Shown: one piece after another, positions 11,658 to 49,351 of the stretch | Layout: every line of letters begins with the position of its first letter | Position numbering within the stretch: the first letter of the stretch is position 1 | NCBI RefSeq assembly: GCF_900005765.1 | Contig: NC_041689.1 | Location: 310,001-374,000, forward strand | Length of the DNA: 64,000 nucleotides | Reading direction: 5' to 3' | Source of the DNA: Plasmodium relictum | Taxonomy: Eukaryota; Apicomplexa; Aconoidasida; Haemosporida; Plasmodiidae | The notes under the pieces: generated by a model | The model's input: only the letters and a program-made list of their open reading frames with translations | Databases searched by the model: none | What the model was told of the DNA's origin: nothing | Made by a program: the position numbers and the translations under genes

Positions 11658-12257
11658 TTATTCCTCTTCATTTCTATATTCTGGGGGTATCCAATCAATA
11701 GGATTTACATCAGCATTTCTATATCTAACTGCTCTTCTAGCTTCAAGATACTGAGAAAAAGCATGATGATCAATTTCTCCACCATAATAATGCCAATGAA
11801 AGTGCTTGTAATATTCATCAGGATCGATTGAAACTTCTAATGGTTCAAATTTTTGTATATACATCGTAAAAGCAAAAATTGGTAAAACAGTAGCTACTAT
11901 TGAACCAACTAAAAGAAATAAAAATTGGAATTGGCCTAAAGTTGCCTTTAAAATTTGTTTATATGTAAAATGTTTTAAATAATCTTTATTGTTAAAAAAA
12001 GTAACTAATTCGTCAGGTGTCATTGAATGAATAGATGGGCCTGCCCAATTACCATATTGATAACCAGTTTCTTTTATTGTTCTTGTTTTAAAAATATCTA
12101 CCCATGGATAACTATGAACTTTTCTTGGATCTAGACCATTATATAATCTTGGTGCATTCCCTGCCTTGGGAATCTTAAACATTTCAGAAGTGGGATAATA
12201 AGATTGTAATGTTGCATTTGCAAACAAATATTTTATTTTACTTCTTGATATTGCCAT
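11658..12257 (-). CDS. Conserved single-pass membrane protein, possibly a mitochondrial respiratory-chain subunit
   Basis: A single open frame from a good ATG encodes 199 residues. One long hydrophobic segment (residues about 113–133, FLFLLVGSIVATVLPIFAF) separates a basic and aromatic N-terminal half (MAISRSKIKYLF…) from an acidic, His/Tyr-rich C-terminal half with HFHWHYYGGE and WIPPEYRNEEE. There is no cleaved signal peptide. A low-complexity-free sequence, one membrane pass, and a length near 200 resemble the lineage-specific subunits of the apicomplexan inner-membrane complexes (cytochrome oxidase or ATP synthase). I did not recognise a defined family, so this is an inference from appearance only. 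It is transcribed in tandem with the downstream-reading DGAT1-type gene. Confidence 0.75.
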   Translation of the reverse strand: MAISRSKIKYLFANATLQSYYPTSEMFKIPKAGNAPRLYNGLDPRKVHSYPWVDIFKTRTIKETGYQYGNWAGPSIHSMTPDELVTFFNNKDYLKHFTYKQILKATLGQFQFLFLLVGSIVATVLPIFAFTMYIQKFEPLEVSIDPDEYYKHFHWHYYGGEIDHHAFSQYLEARRAVRYRNADVNPIDWIPPEYRNEEE

Positions 12258-13684: not shown

Positions 13685-16619
13685 TTAATAATAATTTATT
13701 TTATTTATTTCATTAGCATATAGAATAAATATTAAGGGCATTCCTATAAAAAAATATTAAAAAAATAAAGTTACTTTAAATTGTTTTTTTATAGGGTATG
13801 TATATTATTTTTTATTACCTAATAAAATATTAGACCAAAATATTACATTTCCTATTGGTTTATTTTTATAAAAGTTCTCCCCTAACCATGAAAGTGGGAA
13901 TTGTAAAAACATCAAAAAAAATAAATAAAATTTACATGTATGAAAACAAGCTATCTATATATATATATATATATAAAAAAAAAAAAAAGAAATATGAGAA
14001 AAATTCACATTATTCAATTTGCTTGTTATATATATATATTTATTATTATAAGATAATTTAATTATATTATTAGTATATATTTTTATTCACCATTAATAAT
14101 TCGTGAAAAATTGCTGAAACCAGATAAGTTAAGATACATGCTTTAAATTTATTTAGCTGCCAAAAAAAAAAAAGAAAAGTAGAAAATGGAATATCAATGA
14201 ATTGAATTATAATATATACTGAATTTTTAGTAAATATTCTATTTATAATAAAAAATTGTTTGTAAATTGTATTGTTGAAATTTTTATATCTTGTTTTATT
14301 TATATAAAATTTATCGTAATCGTTTAGTAATAAAAGTATATAAAAATTTATATAACCTTATAATTATTTTTTGCCACTAAATAAACATGCTTAAACAACC
14401 AAGCTTGAACAACGTTATTCCATTTTCTTGAAAACTCGTACCATATTGTACTATTCCACCAATCCTTATAAAATAATAAATAGATATGTAATATATTTAA
14501 ATTATATAATATGTATTTGAATAAATAATCATTTATATACTTGGTAAAATTCCCTTTCTCCAAATTTCGTTATTTCAGCAAATAAATTACAAATGCACTC
14601 AAATATTAAATAAAAGGATGAGAGAAAAATTACTAAACATGGGAATATTAATCTATAAAAAACAAAAATAAACTTTTGAATTAACAATAATTACATTTTT
14701 CTTTTAAATATATATATATATATATATGTTTTTCACCTTATTACTGCTTCAAAAAATGATATATTATTTATGCGATATACAGTTGGTGCAATGAAAACAG
14801 TGTATGTCGTATATTCTATAATCTAATATAAATAAGATGTCATATTTCAAAATAAAAGAAGAATTTTAATGTGTAAAAATAAAATAATAAATATATATAT
14901 ATATATATATACATACCACAGTCAATAACAAACATATAATCTTTTGAGTAAAATATTTAAGTCTAAATTTTTTAATTCTATTAAAAAAAAAAGAATTAAA
15001 TCATAAAAAATTCTTCATTCTTAATTTTTTTTTTTCTATAATTATTTTAAAAAAATTGGAAACCTTTTGAAATTAAATTTATATATTAAAGAAGGGCATA
15101 TCATAAAATTTATATAATTCTTTATATTTAGCTATAAATAGAAAAATAATAATAAATATTATATTACAGAACAAAAATAATAGGTAAAATAAAACATCAT
15201 AATTTATAAATTATAAATAATTTTTTGAAGTTACATTTTTATAATTAACAAGATTATCATTTGGATTTCTTTTAGTATATTCTAAATTTGTAAATAAATA
15301 AGAGTGCATCTACAAAAAAATAAAAATATACACATAAAATAATCATATATTAAAAAAAAAAAAGAAAAAAAAGAAAAAGTTAATATAAATTATTTTTATA
15401 GTACAATATCTCCTAAATATTATTGAATCTAATATAAATAAATATTTCAAATATATATATTTTTAAATAATAAGAAATTAAAAATTTACTTTCATAAAAA
15501 ATATGTAAGATATTGAAATGACAAATCCACATGGAATAACTGTAAACCTATATATATATATATATATAAAATTCTCTATTTCATTATATATAAATATATA
15601 CATATATATTTATATTTATTTAATACTTAATATATATGCAACTAAGAAAAGTAAATATTATTATCCATATTTCTGAAAAACTTTGTAAAATTAGTAGTGT
15701 TGATATAGAAATTTTTTTATTTCTATATAAATAATATATAAAATATGTTCTAAAAAAAAAAAAAGAAAAAAATATTAATAAAACTAATTGAACAAATATA
15801 ATAATTTTGATGTGCAGATTTGTAATATATTTTATATATATATGTTTATATTTTTTTTTCTTTTTTTTTTTTATCTACATGAAAGAAAATAGAAATATTT
15901 TAAGACATAGAAAAATCTAAAAAAAAAATAAGAATAAATAAATAAATAAAATAGGTGATTTTATTTATATTTCACAATTTTAATTTTTATTTATTACAAA
16001 TAAAGGAAATTTTATAAACATTGATTTTAAAAACTAAAAAAAAAAAAAATAAGATAATAGAATAAAAAAATGAAAAAAAGAATTTCTTGAAAAATTATTT
16101 TGTATGCTACAAATTTTTATTATATTGAAAAAAAGAAGAAATAATTTTTTTTTATTTCTATTTTTATTTTTAAAATACTGAAGTATCTAGAAAGTATCCC
16201 TTTTCCAAAAAATTAACAACTGGAATAATCAAAGAGAAAAATAAACCTACATTAACTAAAGAAAAAATTTATTATATATTTTTTTTTTATCCAACTATTT
16301 TATTTAAAAATATAATTTTTATTAATTTTAATAAATATTATTTTTTTTTAATTTTATTCATTTTTTAATTACTTATTAAATTACTAAATCCATATAAGTT
16401 CGAAGACATAATAGGGGAGTTTTTATCGCATATATCTAGTTGAGAGGGAGTATATAAATTTCCCTGATTTTTCTCATTCTCTTTATTTACTTCATTTTTT
16501 TCTTGTTCATTTAATTTTTTATTGAACTTATTATCATTTTTTATTCTAACATATAATTTACTATTACAAAATTTTGGTACTATTTCACTTATAGTATTAG
16601 GTTGCACATTTATTTTCAT
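13685..16619 (-). CDS. DGAT1: DGAT1-type MBOAT acyltransferase (14 exons)
   Basis: Exons in transcription order: 16373–16619, 16179–16255, 15879–15916, 15627–15749, 15490–15547, 15235–15309, 15064–15131, 14917–14977, 14737–14822, 14541–14652, 14357–14464, 14091–14156, 13819–13954, 13685–13743. Every intron is GT–AG, every phase agrees, and the product is 437 residues. Hallmarks in order: FMICPSLIYKFNF (like FLFAPTLCYELNF of DGAT1), VFIAPTVYR, FAEITKFGEREFYQDWWNS carrying the FYxDWWN acyl-CoA motif, VSAIFHELLM with the catalytic His of the MBOAT family, and a closing GMPLIFILYANEI like GQPIAVLMYVHDY. About 80 soluble residues precede the first membrane helix. The enzyme would make triacylglycerol from diacylglycerol and acyl-CoA in the ER. 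The resemblance is to DGAT1 more than to sterol acyltransferases. The frame is intact. Confidence 0.9.
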
Positions 16620-19152: not shown

Positions 19153-19977
19153 ATGTTAGAAGCAAAGTTAAATAATGCATCTATTTTAAAAAAATTATTT
19201 GAATGTATCAAAGATTTAGTAAATGATGCAAATGTTGATGCTGATGAAACTGGGTTAAAATTACAAGCATTAGATGGAAATCATGTATCCTTAGTTAGTT
19301 TACATTTATTAGATTCTGGTTTTTCACATTATAGATGTGACCGTGAAAGAGTTTTAGGTGTTAATATTGCATCATTAAATAAAGTTTTTAAATTATGTTC
19401 CGCTAATGAATCTGTTGTTATATCTAGTAAAGATGATGAAGACAATCTTAATTTTGTATTTGAAAATAACAAGGAAGACAAAGTCACAAACTTTTCTTTA
19501 AAATTAATGTCAATTGAATTAGATTCATTAAATATACCTGACTGTGAAGAAGGCTTTGATGCAGAAGTAGAGTTAAGTAGTAAAGAATTAACTAATATTT
19601 TTAGAAATTTATCTGAATTCTCAGATACTGTCTTTATTGAAATAGATTCAAATAGCATTAAATTTACAACAAAAGGATTAGTAGGGGATGCTGAAGTTGC
19701 ATTAAAACCAAGAGACTCAACAAGCGAAGATGACATAGGAGTTAATATAAAATCAAAAAAAAAAATTAAACAGTCATTTGCTATTAAATATTTAAATTTA
19801 TTCTCAAAATCTAACATTTTGTCAGATGTTGTTACTCTGGGATTAAGTGATAGTAGACCAATTGAATTTAGGTATGAAATAAAAGATACTTCACCTGACG
19901 CAGATACTTTAAAAATAGGTTTTGTTAAATTTTTCTTAGCACCGAAAATGGATGACGATATGGATAATAAAGATTAA
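19153..19977 (+). CDS. PCNA1: Proliferating cell nuclear antigen 1
   Basis: A single exon encodes 274 residues, the size known for Plasmodium PCNA1 and longer than the usual 258–261. MLEAKLNNASILKKLFE and LQALDGNHVSLVSLHL match the first half of the sliding clamp; the second half has IKFTTKGLVGDAEVAL and the C-terminal IGFVKFFLAPK, equivalent to MGHLKYYLAPK of other PCNAs. The extra length comes from a small insertion near residue 190 and an acidic tail (MDDDMDNKD). PCNA is a homotrimeric DNA clamp that tethers replicative polymerases and repair enzymes in the nucleus. Apicomplexans have a second PCNA elsewhere; this one, the closer relative of the canonical clamp, fits PCNA1 by length and neighbourhood. 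Confidence 0.95.
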   Translation: MLEAKLNNASILKKLFECIKDLVNDANVDADETGLKLQALDGNHVSLVSLHLLDSGFSHYRCDRERVLGVNIASLNKVFKLCSANESVVISSKDDEDNLNFVFENNKEDKVTNFSLKLMSIELDSLNIPDCEEGFDAEVELSSKELTNIFRNLSEFSDTVFIEIDSNSIKFTTKGLVGDAEVALKPRDSTSEDDIGVNIKSKKKIKQSFAIKYLNLFSKSNILSDVVTLGLSDSRPIEFRYEIKDTSPDADTLKIGFVKFFLAPKMDDDMDNKD

Positions 19978-20876: not shown

Positions 20877-23800
20877 TTAATAATTATAACTAGCTGCATC
20901 ACGCCACAATACAATTAAATCAACGAATGCATCTCTCTCTTTTTGTGTTTTTGTTTTAATAGGTAATTCTAATCCATTTGGGAATTCCTCAGTTGGTGGG
21001 CCAAAAACGCATAAAGTTACTTTTGTAGTAACTTTTCTAGGTTCCCTTTTATTACATGCTTTTAATGTTGGATGAGATAATCCTTTAGATATATTTTTTA
21101 TACGGACAATAGATATTTTAAAGATATTTTCCAAGTTTTCTCCAACTGTCCATTCAAAAGTACTTAAATCTTGACTTGCTTTCCATTTAAATGCTTGTCT
21201 TTGATCACTGTTATAAAATATTTTGCAAGAACCACCTTTTCTTAAGGTATCTTTTATATTAGATGGTAAATCATGAACACCATTTACATAAGGATCTACG
21301 TCAAATTCTGATAAGCTAAAATCAAAAATTAATAGAGTATCCTTAAATGCATCTAATGGATCTTCTGCTGAATTCATTGCATTTAATGTGAGCTGAACTT
21401 TCTGGAATATTTGCTTATCCTCTTTTTTATTGTTCATTTTTGATAATCCATTCTTAAATCCTTTTATAATATCTCTAGTGATGGTTGTATCATATACTTC
21501 TGCTGAATACATTGCAATGTTATCTATACATATAGACAATAATTGCATTATTATTGCATCTCCCCCAAAATTATTTAAATTCTCCTTAGCCAAAGCATCA
21601 AAACCTGATGCTGTCATTGAAATAATCCCTAATCGATGATACGCAAAATATGCTAATAAACCGAGAGATACCTTTTGTAGTCTTAATTGCTTTTGGTGGT
21701 GTTCTTCATTTGCACAAGTTAATACAGCTTGTATTATTGAATCTATCATTTCTTTATCCATACTAATATTATACCAACCTCCTAGTTTTGCATTATGCAA
21801 TTCTTCTTCTTCTTCAGGATATTCGTTTGTTACTCCTTCTACATTTTGTGTATAATATAATACACATAATAAAACACGCAATACTTCTAGCATTACAATT
21901 GATTGATTAATAGATTTGCATATAACATTTGCCACTGATGGAACACCTCCGCTATTGCAAAATTCATAAGCCAATTCTTCTGATTGAATCAAACGCCTAA
22001 CACATCTTAACGAAGCAACAACTAATTCAGTCATTTCAAATTCTCCAGTATCTGCTTCCATACAGCTAATTAAAATTCCGAATGCATTTGCTTTCACTAA
22101 TAAAGGCAAACTTGATTCAATTTTACATTGATTACTTAATAAATGAATTGCCAAGGCCAATAGATTAATATCATAATCATATAATTGTATAACATTAATC
22201 GTTGTTTCTATTCCACCATTATCAGCAAACATTTTAGCATTTTCATTTAATCTGCACAAGGAACATAAAATATCTAATAACAAAAATATTACTTTCGTAT
22301 CTTCTCTATTTTGCTTTAACACATTTAATACAGGTATTAATGTAACTCCAAAATTTTTCATATTTCTTTGTTCATTTTCCATAACCAAATTGGATAAAGT
22401 ACGTAAACCTGTCTCTAATTGTGCATCGGGAAATGATTCATTTAATTTATTTAACCAAGATTCATAAGATACTTCAATTTTTGCATCTAAGAAGTATTGA
22501 ATATTTGCCGTATATAAAGATAAGTTGGAAATGGCTTTAAATAAACTTTCAATACACCTCACTGCATTTTTATCATCACTTCCGTCATAACTTTTTAAAC
22601 ATTGTACTAACTCCGCAGGAGAACCATTCTTACCATAATGCTTCTTCATTTCCTCATTTTTAAACAAAATATTACAAAGTAAAACAGATGCGCCATTGGT
22701 TACATCAAAGTTAGATCTATATTCTCTTAAAATTCTAACGTTTAAATCTGGTCCTTTTAAATTACAAAAAATGGAACTATTTGCTTTATGATCTATACAC
22801 ATATTTGCTAATGCTAAACAACAGTTTGTTATTGTTGGCTCCATTTTTTCTACATTTAATGATCTTAACAATAAGTTTACACACGCTTCTATTCCTTTTA
22901 GTTCTCCAATTTTAGTTTTTATTTCCTTTACTACAGATAAACTACCAATTAAAAATAAAACATCTGGAAATATAATTTTATCTGTTTGTGGATTATTTAT
23001 AATGCTTATTAATCGAGCTAAAACACCAGCTTTTAATAATGTCTGAACATGTGCATCTGACACAATTTTTCTCATGGAACGGAAAACATGACGTAGGAGT
23101 AAAACAGTATAGTTACCTTTATCATAGTCATTCCATATTTCTATTAAATTATGAACAGCATTTGTCTTGTCATATACATTTCTATTGTAGGCTGTTCTGT
23201 CTATCAACAAAACACGACTTTTAAGAAACTCTTCTTTATTTTCTTTATCTAATGTCTTATCCATGTTTAAATCATTTACTGATTTACTTATAATATTTGG
23301 ATAATCTTTTATTTCTTTCACTATTTCTAAACCTTTTGGATTTTTAGTAAAAGCGCACATAGCACGGCATGAGTAATGTTTTACATTTTCACTACTTTGT
23401 TTAACTATTACATGAAAAGCGCTAGTATGGAATCCTTTTTTTGCAAGTTCAGAAATATTCTCTCCATCTTCACAAAATAATTCTATTGCCATATTACCGT
23501 AAGAATGATCAATTCCTGCTTCCGTGGTAGGTTTTAAGTCATCCTTATTATATATCTTTAATCGATCTAACACAAAATCCATTTCTTTTTCTAATGAAGG
23601 ATCTTGTAAAATATTAATAGGTGTCCCACTGGTTGTATATTGTGATAGAATATCATATACATCTTTACAAGTTTTCTCCCTTGGTTTATCATCATTTATT
23701 GCATTACGGATATTATTAATTCTAGTTTTCATATTATCAACGTAATCATCACCTAGTTCTCCTCTTCTCTTCTCAAGAGTATTTTCTAACTCTTCAAATA

Positions 23801-26800
23801 ATTTATATAATTCTTTATTATTAGCAAGTTGGCGACCTATTCCTTCATTCAATAACAAATTTTCCAAAGCTTGTAAAAATGCTTCTGCTGCTCCTATATC
23901 ACTTAATATATTATCTCGACTATTTTCTATTACAATTGGTAATGCAGAACTTAAGATTTTTGCAGCTATAGATGTATCATAAGAAGCTATTATTCCTAAT
24001 GCTTCTAAGGCAGATGCAGTTACTTCTGGGTTTTGTGCATATTCTATTAATCTTGCTAAATTATTTACCGCATTAATCTTTTCTACTGGTAAAATATGTA
24101 AAAATATTCCAGTTTCGGCGCAATCTTTTATCAATGCAGCATATGCTTTCATAATTTCTACCCTATCCTGTTCTGAATATCTAGACAAATTTTCTTCAGT
24201 TACTAAATCGCCAATTTTTTTTAATGCGTCAGTGGCTACTTTTTCATCTAATAAATTAGCCAAGATCATTTTATCCACTAAATTAATAAATTCCAATGTT
24301 CTATCTTTATTTGAACTTGAATTTAACAACAACTCGCAGTTTTGTATTATACGTTCAGTATTCATATTATTTGCATATCCAGAAGAATTCGCTGTTTCTG
24401 AAATAGCTCCCAGTAATTTCATTCCAGGTATGCATACAGAGTCACTTGATCTATTTGAATCCATAATTACTAATGTTTGGTCTATAAGATTTCCCATTGA
24501 ACCATTCCATTGTTTGTACAGCAATTTAGCACCTTCTTCATCTTTTGCTACTTGTTCTAAAAACTCGAATATTCCTTGTACAACTTCTGGTTTATTTTTA
24601 TGTTGTTCCAATGCTTCATAGGTACTATCTAATAGCTGCGGCAATTTATCCATTACCAATTGTTTCGTATATGGATTCAAAATACATCCAGCTAAAACAC
24701 TATAAACTGGGGATACAAATTTAGCATTTGATATTCCTATTTTATTGGAAATCATATCTGTATATTGATTTAAAGTTCCTGCTGAAGCTACTACCCATGA
24801 ACCCAATTGATCTTCATAATCATATTTTACGCGATCTACTAATCTTTTAGTAACTAACGCTACATTAGCTTGTAATGAAACATTATCTACTTCGGAAGCT
24901 AAATATTCATTTAATACCTGTAATGTAACTTCAGTGTATTGCAAAGCATCTTGAGGATCTTCTAAAGGAGCTCTCAAAAAAATTTCTAATTTACCAGTCA
25001 AGTTATCTATTTTTTGCACTGAATCAGGATCATCATTTTTAACATTTAATATTAATTTCATCAATTTTTTTACTTGCTCATCAGCTCCCATATACGAAAA
25101 CAATACACCTCCCAATTTCGAAATTTCTTCATTTTCGCTGTGGATCATAGTAACATCAGAAACTGTATCAATAGCACCTAACTCTTTTAATTGCATTTTG
25201 TCATTGGCATTACATAGTTTAACTAAAACTCTCAATATTTCTAATGCAGTTTCTTCATTATTCTTATTTTGACTTAAACTTCCTACCATTATTTTTATCG
25301 CAGAATGCTTATCTATTTTCATTTTTTCTTCTAGAGTAACATAATCTGCTATAATTGCTAAACATTTTGAACTTTCTTGAACAATAGGAAGATAATCTTG
25401 GTATTCTTCCATAATTTTAAATAAGTTATCGATAACAGGTGTTTTACTAGATATATGTACTATAATTTCTTCTTTATGAGTTCTTAATAGTTCGTGTAAC
25501 GCTTTTATAGCGTTTGCTCTAGAATTTTTATTTTTTTCTGAGTTACCTAATAATTTTACAATTAAAGAAACGAGTTCTTCATATTCTGGATGACTAATTA
25601 ATTGATTCACACGCTTTCCATCTGTACACATGCAAGCTAAACATCCACAAGTACTTTTTATAACAACGTCAGATTCTGCAAAATGATTTATTCCTGTACA
25701 CAGTTTTTTAACCATTCCTGAATTAAATGCAGTATCAGCGTTTGTTATATCATGCTTCATTAGTAAACTCAAGGATTCCAATATATTAGAAACAGCCTCT
25801 TCTGTGTAATCATTCCCAGGAAACTGTAATAGATCATATGCTTCTATTAATGCAGAGGTCATCTTATGTTTAGTTAGATGAACTAATCCAATTCTTGTTT
25901 GTGATATATTGATGCAGGCGTGGGCAACTTCTGATATAGTAGCATCAAATAAGCTTCTTCCTAAAATATCATAATCTTTACTAGTTATTGAATCGGCAGC
26001 TTTAGGATTACCTTTTAGCCATTTTTCAATATTAAAAAGAGATTCTCCTATATTACAACGAGCAGATATTTTACTTGCTTCAGGTGTCAATAGCAATTCA
26101 TTTAAGGAAACTAAACACTCGTGCAATTTTGCAATATTTTTTTCTTTCATAGCATTATCGCATAACTTTAATAATTCCTCAATCTCTTTTGATAATGAAT
26201 CTAAAGGCATCAACAACGCCAAAAGAGGAGCACATGTTATTTTTAATTTAGTGTTCTTTACATGTGTTCTCATGGCGGTTTGGAGAGGGCTTAGAGCATT
26301 TGCTTTTCTTAAAACTTCAATTGATTCAGGATTAATTTTAACTAAATTTGCTAAAACAGTAAATCCAATTATCTGCACATCAACATACATAGGAACTTTT
26401 TGAAGATAATTAACAATTTGCTTTACATATCCTTTATTAACCAAAATATCTGCACCTATCCTGTCACTACTAAGAAGTATATTATTTATGGCTGCAAGTA
26501 AATTCGTTTGAGTTAAACGAGAATCTGAGTATTTTTTCATTAATTTAAATATACTATCTAAACTTGCTTCTACAAGAGTGTCACTGCTTATTTTGTTTAC
26601 TTTTGTTAAATCATTAATGCATACTGCAGAAGTTATTAAAATGTTTTCATCTGGTTCTTCAGATTCTGCAATTCTTTTTACTTGTGTAATACACATTATA
26701 TCAACTATCGTTGCTATTACCTCATGTATCATAGAAGATGAATTTAATTTTAGTATCTTTATTGTCTTTAATCCAGCTTTAATTAATCTAGTTTGATCGT

Positions 26801-28941
26801 TAAATCTAGGTGATTCTATCCATGCCCTAATAGCATTAAAAACGGAATAATCAGCTCTTTTTGATTCTAGTATGCTTTTTAAGGGTTGTATTCTTGATAA
26901 TCCTGAAATAGCTGCTAAAGTTTTATATGCATCTTCAGGATTTGATTCAGCTGAGTTAATAACTGATTCTAAATTAGATATATGTCTTTGACAATCATTT
27001 TCAGTGGCCAATTTTTCCATAATTTTGGTTCCTTCTTGGATTATAACTTCTTCATTTTCATTTTCTAACATAATAGTTAACACAGCATCAACTACATGCT
27101 GATTGCTCATGTGACTTAAAGCATCAGAGGCAGTCAACATCTTACTTATTAATTTTAGTCCAATTTCTGCTATTTTTCTATCACTAGTTACTGTTGATAA
27201 GGCATCAGCAATTCCTGTCACACCTCCATATTGATTTATTGATTCAATTGACGTTATGTAGTCAGATAACCTAAAATATGCTGTAAGACAATTTAAAAGA
27301 TAATCAGTTTCTGTTAAATGATATTGAATACATGTTGATAAAATTTCTATTGCTTGATTATTCACCATATGTTCATGGAATTCATTAATCATTGAAGCAG
27401 AAGCTATACATTCCATGCTAGCCTTTGCTAATTCAACTGACTCCAATGAACCATATAATATAGGAAGTAGAGAAGCAAACAATGTATAATTATTTATTTC
27501 AGAAACATAATTGGAGCGAGAAACAAACGGGGTTAAAGCGTAACATATAGCACTTGCACATTCGGGATCATTAGGAAAATATGACAAAGCGGTACAAAGC
27601 GAGGCAATACCTCCATATTCATATACAATTGCAGCATGAGGAGGATTAGCTGAAATTCTCCCTAGCATTCTAGATGCTCCTGCTACTAATCGAGAAATTT
27701 TTTCAGGATTACTTTCATATTGTTGTAAACCACTATTAATTAATTCTATAAGTACAGGTATTCCTCCAGATTGAACAACCTTATCCGTTATTGAAGAAAT
27801 ATAAGAAAGAGAACTCAGTAATTCTAATGCAGCATCTTGTTCCTTTGATCCTTGCTCAGACTTTTTTAGTACATTTAAACAATCTGTTAACTGTTCTGGA
27901 CCTACAGCACATTTCATAGCATCACTTCCTTTTGAAACCACTCTAGGGTAAGACTTAAATTTATCTAGAATTAGTACAGATTTTTCAATTAAAGTTGGGT
28001 CTACATATCCATTTGCGGCCATATTTTTAATTGTATCAAAAGCTCCTTCAACTATAGCTGCAACATCATCATTTAAATTTTGAAATGACAAACACTGATC
28101 AATTAACTTGTGATGTGCTCCCTCATCATTTAAGGCCTTTGCGCCAGAAGAAGATTTAGCTGCAACTGACAAAGCACAAGCTATTCCCTTTCCCAATTTA
28201 GTGTTATATGTATTAGAAGTAAAAACATTTAATAAACCAATGCCTAGTTCTCCTCCTTCAATTTGAACATTTAATTCATTCATATTTTCAATAAATGACA
28301 TGCAATTTTTTACTGTTTCTTGATCTGATGGGGAACTTTTAATTATTTCTACTATGGCATCTACACCACCATCCGTTATTAATTTTTGTAAAGCTTCTTG
28401 ATCTTTTTCAGTACAACAGTAATCAGACATAGCACACAATATTTTACTTGAGCAAAAAAGAATGTCATCATCATCTTTATAATTAACTACTGCATTTTTT
28501 ATAGACCCTACAGCACCTCTATCCAAAGCATCATATGCATTTTCTTTGTATATTTTTGATGTTGGACTACAAAAATCAGATAAAGATCTTAATCCAAACA
28601 TCAACATACGTTTAAAGTTTTGATGCTGCATAATAGATGACACAGCAGTGCTAACTCCAGGATCACTTTCTCTTTTCACTGAAAAGAAAAAAAAATAAAT
28701 AAATATAATATATATATATCATAACTAAAACAAAGTGTCCACATCTTAGAATTTTAGTTCCTTCTTATATTTACATATATAAAGCACATAAAAATATATT
28801 TAAAACGTTAAATAAGAAAAAAAGCAGGTACTTCATTATAATATAACATTAAATAAAAAGATATTTCCTTCATAATAAGTTAAAATTTTTATATAAATGA
28901 TGTAATAATCCTTTTTTGTTTTTACCTTGTAATCTCGGCAT
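20877..28941 (-). CDS. GAC: Glideosome-associated connector (armadillo repeats plus PH-like domain)
   Basis: Two exons: 28926–28941 (16 bases, MPRLQ plus one base) and 20877–28678. The large frame opens only at a GTG that sits on the splice acceptor, so the tiny first exon with ATG supplies the start. The 2605-residue product is almost entirely helical armadillo/HEAT-type repeats, seen as recurring GGIPVLIELI, GGVTGIADAL and GGIETTINVIQ-type motifs. The last 130 residues form a PH-like module (GGSCKIFYN … WRDAASYNY). Both the length and layout match GAC of Toxoplasma and Plasmodium, which links cytoplasmic tails of surface adhesins to F-actin and binds phosphatidic acid during gliding and invasion. 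Low-complexity inserts are nearly absent, which points to structural constraint. Confidence 0.93.
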
Positions 28942-40915: not shown

Positions 40916-42307
40916 TTATGTGAACATGTTTGGATTCATAAAATCTAAGGAAGCTTGAATTACAGTATCGGGGTTTCCTTTAATAATAGTTATATCTTCA
41001 CTTGATTCTTTCTTACTTTTTTTTTTCCTTTCCCTTACCTTTCTCTCTTTTTTAATTTTATTATTACTTTTTTTAATCTCTATATTATCTCCTTGTTTTT
41101 CATTTCTTACTACATTTTCATCTATATCTCTATTTTTTTTTTGTTTTATTCTTTCATATTTCTTTCTAGGTTTTTTAATTGTAGGTTCTTTTTCGGAATT
41201 TTCATTGTTTTTTGGTATTCTTCTTTTCCTTGGAGTTTTTTTTTTCTCATCAGTTTTGTTATACACATTATTATCTTTTTTATTTTTTAATTTACTTGAT
41301 TTCAACTTATCCCCTGATTTTAATATCAATTCATTTTTTTCATATCCCATGTATCTAATATAAACATTTTCGAAATGTTTTTTTATATCATCTGTATCAG
41401 GAACCATATCAAAGTGCAAATGATCAATAAGCGATGCTTGTTGCTTTCTTTGAAAGTTAAAAGAAAATAACATTAAAAAATATATATGCTTTATTTAAAA
41501 ATATATACATATATATCAATTTAAATTTGAAAATTTTAGTTAAAAAAATAATAAAAAAATGTTTACACAAGAAATAATACTAATTTCATTTTTTTTTTTT
41601 TTTTTTTTTTGATACCTCCAATTTACTGTAAATAATTTTTTACAAAAATCAAAATTCAAAATAACTTTGTAATCGTATGGAGTAATTTGTGTTAAAAGTC
41701 TTTTTTGATTATAACCAACCTGTATATGTTTAAACAAAAAAAACAAGCAAAAATGGATATTAAAATCAAAAATGCAGAAGTTTTATTAAAATATATATAT
41801 TTTTAATTTTTACACATTTTATTTTTTCTCAATTATTATTTAATATAATGTATATATATATATATATATTTCTTTTTTAATTACAAATGCAAATTCATTG
41901 GCTTTAGCTTTCACTGTTTCTAAATCAATTATACTCTCTGTGGTATTATTAAGTGATAAAGCAGTGTTCATTGTTTTTAGGTACTAACAAATAAAAAAAA
42001 AAGAAAATATGTTAAAATAAAAGAGAAACTTTTCTATTAATTTAATGTTATCATAATTACATCAAAAGTCTTATCCTCCACGAAATTTTCTTTATTTTTA
42101 TTTTTCCTTCTCCTTCTTTTTGGTTTCATTTGATTTTTCAAATACTCAACCTTTAAAAAAAAAATAAAAAATTATTTATAGAGATTTATATATTAATAGA
42201 TTTAAATATATATTTAAAATTTTTATGTATATACCCATTTATCATCAATAATTCTCTGATTAAAGTAAACTATTAGTGAGTTAATGTTCTACAAAGAAGA
42301 AAATCAG

Positions 42308-42344
<37 letters not shown>

Positions 42345-45121
42345 TAAAGATACATTTGTATTGCTATATAACTTTATATATATGCTTACTTGATGAACAG
42401 CTAGCTTAGTATTTTTAAACTTCGAATGTGAATGGTTTTTATTTTTTCCCAATAAATGAAAATATTGATCCAACCTATATTTGTTAGAAAATTCTATTAA
42501 AGGCCAAATTAAATTTAATCTATCCTTAAATGCTTTTTTTAACATATATACTATTTTCTCAACATTATTTATTACACATGTTACTCCAAATGTATTTTTT
42601 ATATTCTCTAGACATATATGAATTCTTTTTATAATTAGAAAATCTATTTTTTGGAGTTCCAGTTTTTCCATAAAAAAAGAGAAATTTTTTTTTTTTAAAT
42701 TACGTATATCTTTTTTTTTAAATAAAGACAGTAAATCTTTGTTCTTATTCACATTCTCATTTAAAGTAATTATATCATTTATATTTTTTCTATTGAAAAT
42801 TTTATTTATACAAAAACTGAACCTTTTATATTTTCTTCTTAATATATCAACTGTATTTATTTGATTGCTTGGAGGTTCACTAATTGGTACAGGAGTATTT
42901 TTTAAGTAAACTGAAAAATTATTATGTGGAAAACATAATTTTTTTGCACTTTTATTTTTTTTTAAATATATATTATTATTTTGATTATTATAAAAATCGT
43001 TAGGGTAAATATTTTTAAAATCGTAATTTCTCATCATTTCAGTAATTTCCATTTTTTTTGTTTTGGTTTTATTTTTTCGTATTCCTTTCTCTTTTTTCAC
43101 CATTTCTTTATTTAAATTTTCTTTTCTTGAATCATTTAATATTTTTTTTTTATTCCCTTTTTCGTAATCGTCTACTGAAAAATTTAATAGATACTTTGTT
43201 GAAGAATCCTGATTATCCATATAAATATTACTATTATTATTAATATTATTAAAATAACTTTTATCATGTAAGTTTTCGCTCATTTTTTTATTATGAGAAA
43301 AACTATCCAAATTGTTCATTACAGCTTGATAACTAGATTCTTTAATATTTTCCATGTGGAAATTTGAACATTCTTTATTTATTATCTCTTTTTTATTTTC
43401 TACTTCATCCTTGTTTATATTCATAGAATCTGTTTTATTTCTTTTATTATCTATCTTATAACTGTTATTTAATTTATAATATAATAAATTTAAATTATTT
43501 TTATCAATTTCTTTATTTTTATTATTATAAACAATTTCGTCCTCTATTTTTTTTTTTTTACTTGTCATATTATTGTTAGTTATATTTTTCTCAAATAAGT
43601 TATTGGATGATAAATTATTTTCCATAATATTAGAAGAGTAGCTTCTTTTTTTTTCTATTTCATTCAACTCTTGAACAGAAATTTTATTGAAATTTTTTTC
43701 ATTCATTTGATCTATCATATTATCATATGTAGATTGTGGATATTTTTTATCTAATGAATATAAATTATTATTTCCATTTTGTATATTTTCACCTAATATT
43801 TTATTGGAACTTATATCATTCACAATATTTTTTTCATTTAAATGTTTAAATAGGCTGTTTTCATCATTATTCATGCTTTTTAAATAAACTGTATTATTAT
43901 ATATATATTTTTTTGTACTATTTGTAAAATCCATATGCTTATCTAACTTATTTGTGATTGAATTATTTTTATCAAATTCATTAATACTTACATTACTATT
44001 TTCTAAATTATGTGTATTTAATACATTTCTGTTCAATACGTTAAAATTAGAAATATTATTAGAAAATGCAAATTTATTATTATTATTATTTATGGTTTTA
44101 TTCGCGTCTAAATGATCTTTTAATGATTTTTTTCTAATGTTATTATAATCATCAGTTACATTATTATAATTACTTATTTGTATATCAGTGCTACTATTAA
44201 TAGTATTTGTACTATGATCATTATTATTAACATTAAAGTTAACTTTACTATGTGTATTATTAATATTATTTTGATTATTTTTTAATAATGGATTATTATT
44301 GTATAAATTTTCATTACAAATATTTTTATATATACTATTATTACTTTTATTTGCTAAGTTATTTAAAGGGTTTATATTTGCATTGTTTGAAATAGAAGTA
44401 CTCTCTATATTGATATTATTTAGGAGGTTGTTTAAATTATTATTTATATTATTAATTAAATTATTGTCAATCTTATTATCATTATAAACGATATTATTTA
44501 AAAAACTATTGCTATTATTATCTTTACTCTCAATATTGTAATTATTATCATTATTAATAATAATACTACTATTATTATTACTACTCAAATTAATGATATC
44601 ATTATTATTATTACTACTCAAATTAATGATATCATTATTATTATTACTACTCAAATTAATGATATCATTATTATTATCATTACTTATATTAATACCATTA
44701 TTATTATTATAATAATTATTATCATTATTATAATTACTATCATTTTTAATATCATTATTATGGTTACTATCATTTTTAATATCATTATTATTACTACTAC
44801 TTATATTAATGCTATTATTATTATCACCATCAATATCATTAATATCGTTATTAATATTGTTATTACTCATATTAGCATTATCATTATTATTATTCATGTT
44901 CATGTTATCATTAGTATTATTATTATAATTATTAATACTATTATTATTTTTATTATTATCATTATTAATATTATTATTATTACTAATAATATTATCATTA
45001 TAATAATTACTATTATTATTATTACTCATATTAACATTATCATTATTAATAATAATACTACTATTATTATTACTACTCAAATTAATGATATCATTATTAT
45101 TATCATTACTTATATTAATAC

Positions 45122-45191
<70 letters not shown>

Positions 45192-48100
45192 GTTATTACT
45201 ATTATTACTATTATTACTATCATTATTAATATCGTTATTATTACTAATAATATTACTACTAATCGAAGTACAATCAGCGGTAATATTATTACTCATATTT
45301 ATATTATTTAAATTTGTTAAAGTCAAATCTTTTTTTTCTTTAATCTTCATTTGTAGTTCAAAAGAACATTTAATAATGTAATTGAAACTTAACATAGAAT
45401 GCTTTTCTAATTGATGTATTAAATCATTTAATCTGTTAGGATAAAATTTTTTTAAGTATGGTATAAAAGCTACATATTTTTTTTTATTTTCATTAAATTC
45501 TTTATTTAAAAATAGCCATATAAAATTGGAATCAACTTTTATTTGATCACTTTTAAATTTATCCTCTTTTTCTAATAATTCACTATTTGCATTTTTATTT
45601 TCTACATTAACTGATTCATCACATATATTCTTAATAGTTTCACTTTTTATATAATTGTGAGAGTTTATTTGCATAATGCCTTTTGTATTATCTTGCATAT
45701 TTGCATTTCCTTTTAATTTCATAATATATAAATCATTAACATTAATTTTATTATTTGATATGTTTTTATTATAATTTAAATGATTTATTTCATTCATATT
45801 ATTTACCTTATTAATATTATTTGAATTATTAACACTGTTTAAATTACTTGTAATATTTAAGTTATTTATATTCTTTAAATTATTTTTACTTTTAAAATTT
45901 CCTATAGGAGATAAGGAATTTTTTTTCTCTTGATTTATTTTATTTAAGCTAAAATTTTCATTTAAAGAAGAATGTGAATATAAATTACCTAAATAATTAT
46001 CATTATTTAAATTAACCAGACTATTTAAGTTATCATTATTGTTGCCTGTTATGATTTTTGAATTATTTAGTAATATGTTTTGATTTTGAGGTGACTGATC
46101 ATTGGAATTGCATAAATTATTATCTTTTAATATTGATGAATAATTGCTTATTTTATTTTCATTTAATTTGTTATTTTTTTTTTCTACACTCTTTGAACAA
46201 TCATTATAAAATTTTAATTTTTTATTTAGCATTTGATTATCTAATGAATCATTACAATTTCCTCTAGCCATTGAATGTGATATGGAATTATTCATATAAT
46301 TATTTTTATTATTAACGGAAATATTTTCGTTGTTAGATATATCGATATGTTGATCATTTAATGCATCATTGCTTTTCCTATTGCCATTTGCTGCAAAATT
46401 TTCCTTTTCCTTTTCTTTTTCTTTTTCTTTCTTTTTTTTTTTTATTAAACATTCAGGTAACATAGGTTGACTATGGGTAACAGTGCTATTTAAATTAGTA
46501 CTATCTAGCTTTTTCTTAACATCGCATTCCATATTATTTATATCAAAATTAATACTACTTTTTTCATTATTATTTGAGATATGTGAAGATAAATTTTGTT
46601 TTACTATAGGTGAAAGTAATTTTTGGCTGTTATCTTGAATGGATGAATTATTTATGTAATTAGAATTTTTTACTAAATTAAAATTATGTTCATTTATATA
46701 CATGTTTTGATTCGAATAATGCTTATTATTTATATTATATAGAGATGTTATATTCTTATCGTTTATATTTATATTACTATTTAATATGTCATTTTCTAAA
46801 TAACTACTTGTATCAGAATTATAACTCTTTTTTATTTCAGAATTTAAATTACTACTTAAATTTGATTTCGCTTTGTCCACCTTAAATTCATCTTTATTCA
46901 TGTTATTTTTTAAATTCTCATTCATGAACACCTTATCATTTAATGATAAATTTAAATATATATCATTGTTCAAATTACTATTCATATTTTTCATTGAATT
47001 ATTATTTAAAGTACTACTTTTATTTTTGTTATTATCCAAATCATTTAAATTGTTTATATTTTTATTATATATTTTTACATTAGGAATAGCAATGTTTATA
47101 TTATTTACATTAGTATTTAATTTATTCAAACTATCATTCTTATCTTTCAAATTATTAATTTTAATATTCGTATTATTTAAATAGCTAATATTATTTATGT
47201 TAGAGTTTAAGTTAATATTACTCATATTATTACTATTGTTATTATTTAAGTTATTAATCTTATCATTTAAATTTTTCATATTATATTTTATATTATTTAG
47301 ATTGCTCATTTTATTACCCAATATATTTATGTTATTCATATTATTATTTAAATTATTCATGTTATTAACGTTATTATTTAAATTACTTATATTCTTATTT
47401 AAGTTATTCATGTTATTAACGTTATTATTTAAATTACTTATATTATTATTTAAGTTATTCACATTATTATTAATAGAATTATTTAAATTATTTACGTTAT
47501 TATTTGTATTTTTGTCGTTCAAATTACTATTTACATTGTTTCCATTATTCATATTTAAATTTTTAAGATTGCTATTGCTACAACTATCATTTATATTAAT
47601 TATATTACTCAAGTTATTAGTTTTATTAATTCTATCAATAAAATCTTTTGTGTTAATTCTATTCAAATTATTTATATTATTTAAGTTATTATGCATACTA
47701 TTAATATCAGAACTTTTTAAAGTATTATTTTTATTAAGAAAAAGATTTCTATAATTGATTTGAGGATTATTGATATTTTCATCAATTGATCCAGTCATGT
47801 TATTATTCACATTTTTATGAAAATTATTATAATTCACAATATTAACTGGCTTATTTAAATTTTCATTTGCATTTTTAATCGAATTTTCATTCATCTTTTG
47901 TATTGTGTTTCCTATTTTTAAATTATTTAGTAAATATTGATTATTAGCATAACTATTATTATTTAAATCATTATTACTATAAATTAAATTATTATTATGA
48001 AAGTTAAAATTTTCCATTGAATTATTGCCAGGAGTATTATTTGATATCTCATTGACGGAATCGATAAAATTACTATTTTCATTTAAAGTATTATTATGAT

Positions 48101-48563
48101 GATCAATTTTTTTTTGCATGTTCATATTTAAAGTATTAGAATTATTGACATTATGGTAATTTGATATACTTTCTTTATTTCTATTATTATCAATTGCATT
48201 ATTTCCATAAGAAGAATTACTTTGAATTGTGTAAAAATTGTTATTAGATTTCATATTGCAATTTTTTATAAAATTTAAATTGTTATTAATGCTTAGTGAA
48301 TTATTTTTTTTTGAGCTATCATTTAATATATTATTTATATTATAGCTATTTAAATCGTTGTGGTTAATTACATGATCATTAGTAATATTTAATAAATTCA
48401 AATTTTCGTTTATATTACAATCCTCATTTAATGAATCATATAAAACTTTGTTATTTTGATATTTTATGAAATTTAATTCATTAATCTCATCATTATAATC
48501 ATTACTACTATTATATATAAAAGAATTATTTTTATTTATAATATTTTTACTGTTCTCATTCAT
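40916..48563 (-). CDS. Giant Asn-rich protein with basic C-terminal region (six exons)
   Basis: Exons in transcription order: 42390–48563, 42235–42288, 42061–42150, 41885–41983, 41616–41719 and 40916–41447. All introns are GT–AG, phases agree, and the product is 2350 residues. The start is the ATG at 48563 (MNENSKNI); further upstream the frame offers only TTG. Most of the first 1900 residues are Asn-dominated with Leu, Ile, Ser and Lys, including a poly-Asn run and tandem repeats. Less biased islands lie around residues 1010–1060 (FIWLFLNKEFNENKKKYVAF) and in the last 400, where FTVNWRKQQASLIDHLHFDM and a Lys/Arg-rich tail with PRKRRIPK and KKPRKKYERIK resemble nuclear-localisation signals. 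It is probably nuclear, of unknown function. The last 180 residues could be mistaken for a separate gene but join in frame. Confidence 0.85.
44581..44679 (-). repeat. 33-bp tandem repeat, three copies, inside the Asn-rich gene
   Basis: Three head-to-tail copies begin at 44581, 44614 and 44647 and encode NNNNDIINLSS each. A related single copy sits in a larger duplicated block near 45071–45125, so the tandem array looks like expansion within one copy of a duplicated segment. Confidence 0.85.
45123..45191 (-). repeat. Poly-Asn codon run (AAT)n
   Basis: A run of about 22 uninterrupted AAT codons on the minus strand, with further AAT-rich codons on both sides. In the opposite direction it reads as an Ile or Leu run, a shadow frame. 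Confidence 0.9.
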
Positions 48564-49351
48564 TATTTTTAATACCAAAAAAAATATTTTTTTATGAGGA
48601 GAAATTTTTATAACGCATGACAAATAACACGTAAAAAAATAAAATAAAATAAAATAAATAAAAAATTTTTGATTAACCTAATACTTCTAAATATTGAAAA
48701 ATTAAAAAAAAATAACAAAAATGACAAAATGTAAAGATAAAAAAGAATGGAATATCAATTATGAAGAAGAAAGATATTTAAAAGGTTATTATCTTTTTTT
48801 TTTTTTATATAAAAATGATTCAAGAATAAAAAAAAAAAAAAAAAACTAAACATATAAAATGCTTAATGCAGTTTTTATGTCTTAAAATGAATCAAAGGAT
48901 ATAATAAAACAAATTTTCTTAAATTTTTTCAGTTTTAAAAAATAGATAAAAATAAGAATTTATTTTCGTTAGGAAATAAAAATTAATTTGGCCTTTATAA
49001 ATATAAAAAAAAAGTATATGTATATATATATATATGATTGTTCGTATATATGAATAAATAAATGTATATAGAACTTATTATTTTCTTTAAACGATATTGT
49101 TACAAGTTTTAAAAAGATTGATTATATTAAATATATAAATATGCATATATAATGAATTAAATGATATAAAAAAAAATTTTTTTTAAAAATGTTCAATGAA
49201 GTAATTACTGTTTGAAATAAAAAAAAAACTTACAATTTTTAATGAAAACAATATACATTAAATTTTTTATCCTGTTTTACATATATATATTATTTGTACG
49301 TGTATATATATATATTAATTTATCTCATTAAAAAATTAAAAAAAAAAAAAA
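48564..49351. other. Region between Asn-rich gene and Sec24, with a possible tiny spliced ORF
   Basis: This stretch is upstream of the Asn-rich gene and 3' of Sec24. It is AT-rich filler apart from a short coding-like plus-strand piece at 48721–48784, described separately. Confidence 0.5.
48721..48949 (+). CDS. Tentative 26-residue spliced ORF
   Basis: An ATG in the usual Plasmodium context (A-rich upstream) opens MTKCKDKKEWNINYEEERYL, less AT-skewed than its surroundings. A GT donor follows at 48785 and a TTTTTTCAG acceptor ends at 48932; the join gives 26 residues ending VLKNR. It could be a micro-protein, a regulatory upstream ORF, or a relic of a longer gene. It faces away from the Asn-rich gene and may share its promoter. 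No family is recognised and the evidence is only local composition and splice signals. Confidence 0.25.

Follow-up and report, generated by a model that had tools for sequence, protein, structure and literature searches.

The locus examined here raises the question of whether the acyltransferase gene that it carries is the ordinary diacylglycerol acyltransferase (DGAT1) of Plasmodium relictum, a second copy of it or an enzyme of another kind. The window, the whole 64,000-nucleotide stretch of contig NC_041689.1 that was analysed (positions 310,001 to 374,000), had been described in a first-pass annotation as holding a DGAT1-type gene that might be an extra enzyme, a moved gene or a gene lost in P. 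falciparum. We favor, at a probability of about 65%, an intact second acyl-CoA-dependent MBOAT O-acyltransferase of the apicomplexan ACAT1-alpha type, putatively sterol-esterifying, ancestral in haemosporidians and lost toward mammalian Plasmodium. The flanking genes confirm the location given by the first-pass annotation, between a 199-residue gene and PCNA1. The former (11658..12257, minus strand) encodes an ApiCOX24-type cytochrome c oxidase subunit, residues 87-184 of which match PDB 9fq7 chain 4J 'Cytochrome c oxidase subunit 24' (E 1.7e-6), and the latter (19153..19977, plus strand) encodes a PCNA1-type protein of 274 amino acids with the Pfam domains PCNA_N and PCNA_C. The next neighbor is a 2600-codon frame (20877..28679, minus strand), which we take to be the glideosome-associated connector; its PDB match is 8bt6 'Putative anonymous antigen-1' with 2331 bits. 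A 2116-codon open frame on the minus strand of the window (42273-48623) has no Pfam match at E 0.001.

Joining three reading frames at GT...AG borders yields one gene on the minus strand (16619-13685) with 15 exons of 36-247 bases, encoding a 449-residue protein whose sole stop lies at the end. The start codon at 16619 and the stop codon at 13685 were verified, and the gene is intact at the position initially proposed. All 14 introns are of the GT...AG type and 75-200 bases long, with a GC content of 6-15% compared with 21.6% for the coding sequence, and retention of any of them (14/14) introduces an in-frame stop. Exon 1 (16373..16619) encodes the variable N-terminus (residues 1-83) and is followed by exon 2 (16179..16255) and by the 36-base exon 3 (FLKSMFIKFPLF, 15998..16033), which is found neither in the NCBI model nor in the first-pass annotation. 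The latter had overlooked it, giving 14 exons of 38-247 bases and 437 residues, and the gap to 449 is exactly the 12 residues of this exon. With a GC content of 11%, exon 3 cannot be separated from intron by composition alone; it adds 24.7 bits on an independent profile, and 5 of its 12 residues are identical to the public sequence P0003. Exons 4 (15879..15916), 5 (15627..15749) and 6 (15490..15547) are likewise absent from the NCBI model and are identical to P0003 at 6/13, 22/41 and 8/19 residues, respectively. Exon 6 ends in FFMK and exon 7 (15235..15309) opens with MHSY, completing an MKMHSY motif that contains His195. Exons 8 (15064..15131), 9 (14917..14977) and 10 (14737..14822) lead to exon 11 (14541..14652), whose last residues are the FYQ of FYQDWWN, and to exon 12 (14357..14464), which carries DWWNST...RKWN. 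Exon 13 (14091..14156), missing from both NCBI models, carries SAIFHE with the conserved His381 and is identical to P0003 at 15/22 residues; exon 14 (13819..13954) and exon 15 (13685..13743, stop codon included) complete the gene.

The 449-residue protein matches Pfam MBOAT (PF03062) with 60 bits against a curated cut-off of 27 and keeps the features of family membership, the conserved histidine and the FYxDWWN-type motif, which bears out the earlier recognition of an MBOAT protein from FYQDWWN and FHE. Residue counts cover 75 rows, made up of 74 of 121 proteins plus the window protein. Of the near-invariant family positions, 24/26 are retained, FYxDWWN and the FHE histidine among them; this histidine is present in 72/72 relatives as well as in the window protein. 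Chance joining of short open frames was ruled out, 20/20 shuffles scoring below zero on the relatives' profile.

The gene is already listed at NCBI as 'acyl CoA:diacylglycerol acyltransferase, putative', with five exons absent. The P. relictum model (P0001) has 342 amino acids and its P. gallinaceum counterpart (P0002) 337; both are without exons 3-6 and 13 and hence without the exon of the catalytic histidine. Dropping these five exons from the window gene reproduces P0001 letter for letter. All five skipped stretches are found in P0003, a 478-residue frame from a public assembled contig of 1633 bases. Since this frame is uninterrupted, its source must be RNA after splicing or a gene with few introns. 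Shuffled versions of exon 3 reached its match score to P0003 in 32/5000 cases and those of exon 4 in 5/5000, while exons 5, 6 and 13, each taken singly, were never equaled (0/5000). Exons 3-6 joined score 200 against P0003 (shuffle mean -42, 0/5000) and exon 13 alone scores 80 (shuffle mean -12, 0/5000). On the independent profile, built from 11 relatives that are all non-haemosporidian, the 15-exon model reaches 355.8 bits, the model without exon 3 as initially proposed 331.1 and the NCBI exon set 249.6, compared with 178.4 for the DGAT1 of the same genome and values below 0 for 20/20 shuffles. The exon shuffles against P0003 and the lower profile scores led us to reject both the 14-exon set and the NCBI exon set. 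The public record thus lacks five exons and, judged by sequence, probably has a wrong name; the gene models of both species are corrected here, as is, probably, the name. In section 17 of the genome paper (PMC5880244), gene models are described as corrected with orthology and transcriptome data; a gene that is silent in the transcriptome data and has no mammalian orthologue would escape both corrections, which may be how the errors went unnoticed. The same five exons being dropped in P0001 and P0002, further many-exon genes of both species may be mis-modelled likewise.

The ordinary DGAT1 of P. relictum sits elsewhere, at locus L001 on contig C8, as one open frame of 545 codons that is 100% identical over 99% of the query to the NCBI P. 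relictum diacylglycerol O-acyltransferase (P0016). The window gene is thus a second enzyme, and the first-pass suggestion of an extra acyltransferase, for which a DGAT1 elsewhere in the genome was to be the support, holds in this respect. The C8 frame is the sole MBOAT profile match in the genome, a search that the window gene escaped with its very short exons. When the joined protein was searched against the genome and the best candidates were scored, 11 matches were obtained, 10 from the gene's own stretch (contig C11) and one from the DGAT1 on C8. A further gene copy was rejected on these 11 matches, which represent the best candidates only and could miss MBOAT genes made of very short exons. 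Plasmodium DGAT1 (PfDGAT; P0016 in P. relictum) has the MBOAT family and the core motif in common with the window protein and differs in clade, locus and gene structure, one open frame as opposed to 15 exons. Against solved chains, the C8 protein scores 211.6 bits with DGAT1, 92.0 with SOAT2 and 85.7 with SOAT1. Its relatives, searched in a database clustered at 90% identity, include 13 mammalian Plasmodium names (three gorilla clades, ovale, ovale wallikeri, gonderi, vivax, coatneyi, fragile, brasilianum, cynomolgi, yoelii and vinckei), P. falciparum not being among the names. One DGAT labelled Piliocolobus tephrosceles (red colobus; P0033) is 63% identical over 62% to P. relictum DGAT1 and probably reflects a blood parasite in the sampled monkey.

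Two trees that include DGAT1 and ACAT proteins place the window protein apart from DGAT1. The first contained 58 rows and used a quick method; its main groups agree with those of the second, for which P0014, P0031, P0036, P0039, P0040, P0043, P0054, P0059, P0076, P0085, P0103, P0104 and P0115 were dropped and parts of two solved chains were added, giving 47 rows. P0001 was left out of both, being the same gene. In the 47-row tree, the closest partners of the window protein are P. gallinaceum and P0003 (100/100); the 'ACAT1-alpha' of Cardiosporidium joins next (P0004; 99/94, SH-aLRT 94 in the first tree), followed by ciliates (98/94) and finally by a fungal/environmental group (100/99), one member of which bears the name Sterol O-acyltransferase 2. 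DGAT1 rows are united separately (100/99), and animal SOAT makes up a further clade (100/100). Six tree rows, the window protein included, have an unusual amino-acid make-up, which calls for caution in reading the tree. In AU tests, joining the window clade to haemosporidian DGAT is rejected at p 1.3e-5, to apicomplexan DGAT at p 1.4e-6, to all DGAT1 at p 7.4e-4 and to animal SOAT at p 7.2e-5; the DGAT1 grouping was the prior claim of the first-pass annotation and the other groups were named after the first tree. A duplicated or moved DGAT1 was rejected on these tests. By its sequence relationships, the window gene is not a DGAT1 but probably of the apicomplexan ACAT1-alpha type, and the initial DGAT1-type label was not borne out. 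P0053 carries the label Schistocerca gregaria but falls with the amoeba Balamuthia (84/87) and not among animals; it probably entered the locust assembly as a contaminant.

Comparison with known enzymes of this clade shows both kinship and distance. The window protein is 36-37% identical to the Cardiosporidium cionae protein P0004 and has its motif set in common with it; its likeness to T. gondii ACAT1-alpha runs through the name shared with the Cardiosporidium protein. The fungal protein P0073 (Microsporum canis 'Sterol O-acyltransferase 2'), presumably of the ARE type, has MKMHSY, DWWNS and HEL in common with the window protein but is distant from it, and the fungal group's own support is just 90/83. 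Animal SOAT1/ACAT1 (PDB 6l47) aligns over the membrane region with 104 bits and likewise has the MKxH motif, but lies in the separate clade whose union with the window clade is rejected, which counts against an animal SOAT identity.

Three alternative readings of the gene deserve weighing. The window protein could still be a triglyceride-making enzyme of the DGAT1 type, arising as a second DGAT1 by duplication or as an ancient one, which would agree with the NCBI names of P0001 and P0002. Its best match among solved chains is indeed a DGAT1 chain (DGAT1 106.7 and 102.2 bits, SOAT1 104.0, SOAT2 84.9). The lead over SOAT1 amounts to 3 bits when the single sequence is used and to 30 with a four-sequence clade profile, in which DGAT1 9vjm scores 197 bits, DGAT1 6vp0 167.4, level with SOAT1 at 166.6, and SOAT2 139. 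These rankings decide little, since the fungal sterol-named P0073 also places a DGAT1 chain on top (97 versus 84 bits). Among 19 positions diagnostic for DGAT1 as opposed to animal SOAT, 8 are DGAT1-like in the window protein, 2 are SOAT-like and 9 are neither. Against this stand the rejection of all three DGAT groupings, the true DGAT1 on contig C8 and His195 of MKMHSY, which occurs in 0/29 DGAT1 rows and in 40/43 other relatives and which we count toward a sterol acceptor. We regard a DGAT1-type enzyme as unlikely.

The reading that the gene is decaying, with the 337-342-residue public models as its true product, draws on the fact that exons 3-6 and 13 are skipped in both models and that the skip stays in frame for P. 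relictum. All five exons nevertheless have an open frame between AG and GT borders, are conserved in P0003 and are worth 106 bits on the independent profile, and the skipped product would lack His381 and, by crude hydropathy, membrane segments; we give this reading hardly any credence. It is conceivable, if improbable, that the enzyme belongs to the ACAT1-alpha clade and has changed its acceptor in haemosporidians, using another alcohol or having dual specificity. Three residues common to P0003 are haemosporidian-only at otherwise conserved sites, unlike in the Cardiosporidium/Toxoplasma ACAT1-alpha type: E322 in exon 11 (14652-14541; D in 71/72 relatives), Q347 in exon 12 (14464-14357; H in 64/72) and Y374 in exon 13 (14156-14091; F in 72/72). 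These substitutions could alter activity, and the stem branch is long (0.99), but the core catalytic motif is intact, as are 24 of the 26 family positions noted above.

For the preferred reading, an intact ACAT1-alpha-type enzyme, we hypothesize that the protein sits in the ER membrane, where it would take a fatty acyl group from acyl-CoA and, through His381 catalysis inside the membrane, transfer it most likely to a host-derived sterol. The resulting sterol esters would be destined for lipid droplets, and the enzyme would act alongside the triglyceride-making DGAT1 of contig C8. A sterol acceptor is our best guess because of the kinship with Cardiosporidium ACAT1-alpha and because the Toxoplasma ACATs are said to make cholesteryl esters. 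The T. gondii ACAT1-alpha (TGGT1_263710) is reported to matter for host cholesterol storage in lipid bodies (PMC10128063). Cholesteryl ester production is credited to TgACAT1 as well as TgACAT2, with severe growth defects when either is lost and lethality when both are (PMC5469497). The substrate is taken from the names of relatives, given the 8/2/9 split of diagnostic positions, the rejected SOAT grouping and a clade profile that favors DGAT1 9vjm. Counting against a sterol, neither Toxoplasma nor any other coccidian contributed a clade member to the 15 and 33 hits of two protein searches for the window type, and the coccidian hits of the DGAT1 relative search are of the DGAT type. Kinship to the characterized Toxoplasma enzyme is therefore traced through the Cardiosporidium name. 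Published reports disagree on Plasmodium's own sterol ester synthesis. The title of one study, as given in a reference list, speaks of a lack of cholesterol esters in P. falciparum-infected erythrocytes, while cholesteryl ester is stated to accumulate in gametocyte-infected cells (PMC4744411), and a review ties several P. falciparum proteins to cholesteryl ester storage, yet gives only PfDGAT in its table (PMC8851939).

Among named Plasmodium species, only P. relictum and P. gallinaceum yielded the window-type protein in the two protein searches (15 and 33 hits, several of which carry no species name). No mammalian Plasmodium match was among these hits, although the same database holds DGAT1 of the 13 mammalian names. 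A hit in these searches must have five-residue words in common with the query and be 0.55-1.75 times as long; the searches support, without proving, absence of the gene from mammalian Plasmodium. The flanking genes agree with this. In the sources consulted, P. falciparum ApiCOX24 is PF3D7_1362000 (PMC8217502, PMC6156079) and PCNA1 is PF3D7_1361900 on the minus strand of chromosome 13 (PMC6446197); because these numbers are consecutive, they suggest, as gene numbers only, that no gene is annotated between the two. Loss from P. falciparum, one of the options of the first-pass annotation, is favored by the consecutive flanks and the bird-only named hits, though what was lost would not be a DGAT1.

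The gene is present in both bird Plasmodium at NCBI and in a third haemosporidian-like sequence, P0003. Cardiosporidium, an apicomplexan of the order Nephromycida, carries both kinds of enzyme, the ACAT1-alpha-named P0004 and the DGAT P0042. With the bird species placed outside the mammalian ones (PMC5880244), this distribution fits, by parsimony, one loss on the mammalian stem, and gain by transfer in bird species is not needed. The gene would have been present in the haemosporidian ancestor and lost en route to mammalian Plasmodium. A broader scenario, to which we give slightly less than an even chance, is that bird malaria still makes sterol (or another neutral) esters with the ancestral ACAT1-alpha enzyme, a storage pathway dropped on the move to mammals with their anucleate red cells, and that annotation hid it through the dropped catalytic exon in both species and the DGAT name. 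In section 7 of the genome paper, blood-stage expression is given for only 2/50 bird-malaria-specific genes, a figure for the group as a whole, which we count against our reading (PMC5880244). Term searches at word starts found no 'transferase' in the main text of PMC5880244 and no 'acyltransferase' in that of PMC8093664, and among open-licence papers on bird malaria acyltransferases none is about this gene by title or abstract start. The kind of enzyme is already known; the interest lies in its probable loss from the mammalian lineage and in the retention of an ACAT-type enzyme by bird malaria. With a complete gene of this type in bird malaria and none found in mammalian Plasmodium, presence and absence can be compared inside one genus.

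P0003 may derive from a haemosporidian outside Plasmodium, as judged from distances and from the branching of a DGAT1 sequence, P0018, that need not come from the same organism. In the first tree, P0003 is 0.79 from P. relictum compared with 0.25 for P. gallinaceum (3.2 times as far), and for DGAT1 the corresponding distances are 0.37 for P0018 and 0.10 (3.7 times). In the second tree, P0018 branches outside the five Plasmodium DGAT1 rows with support of 100/99.
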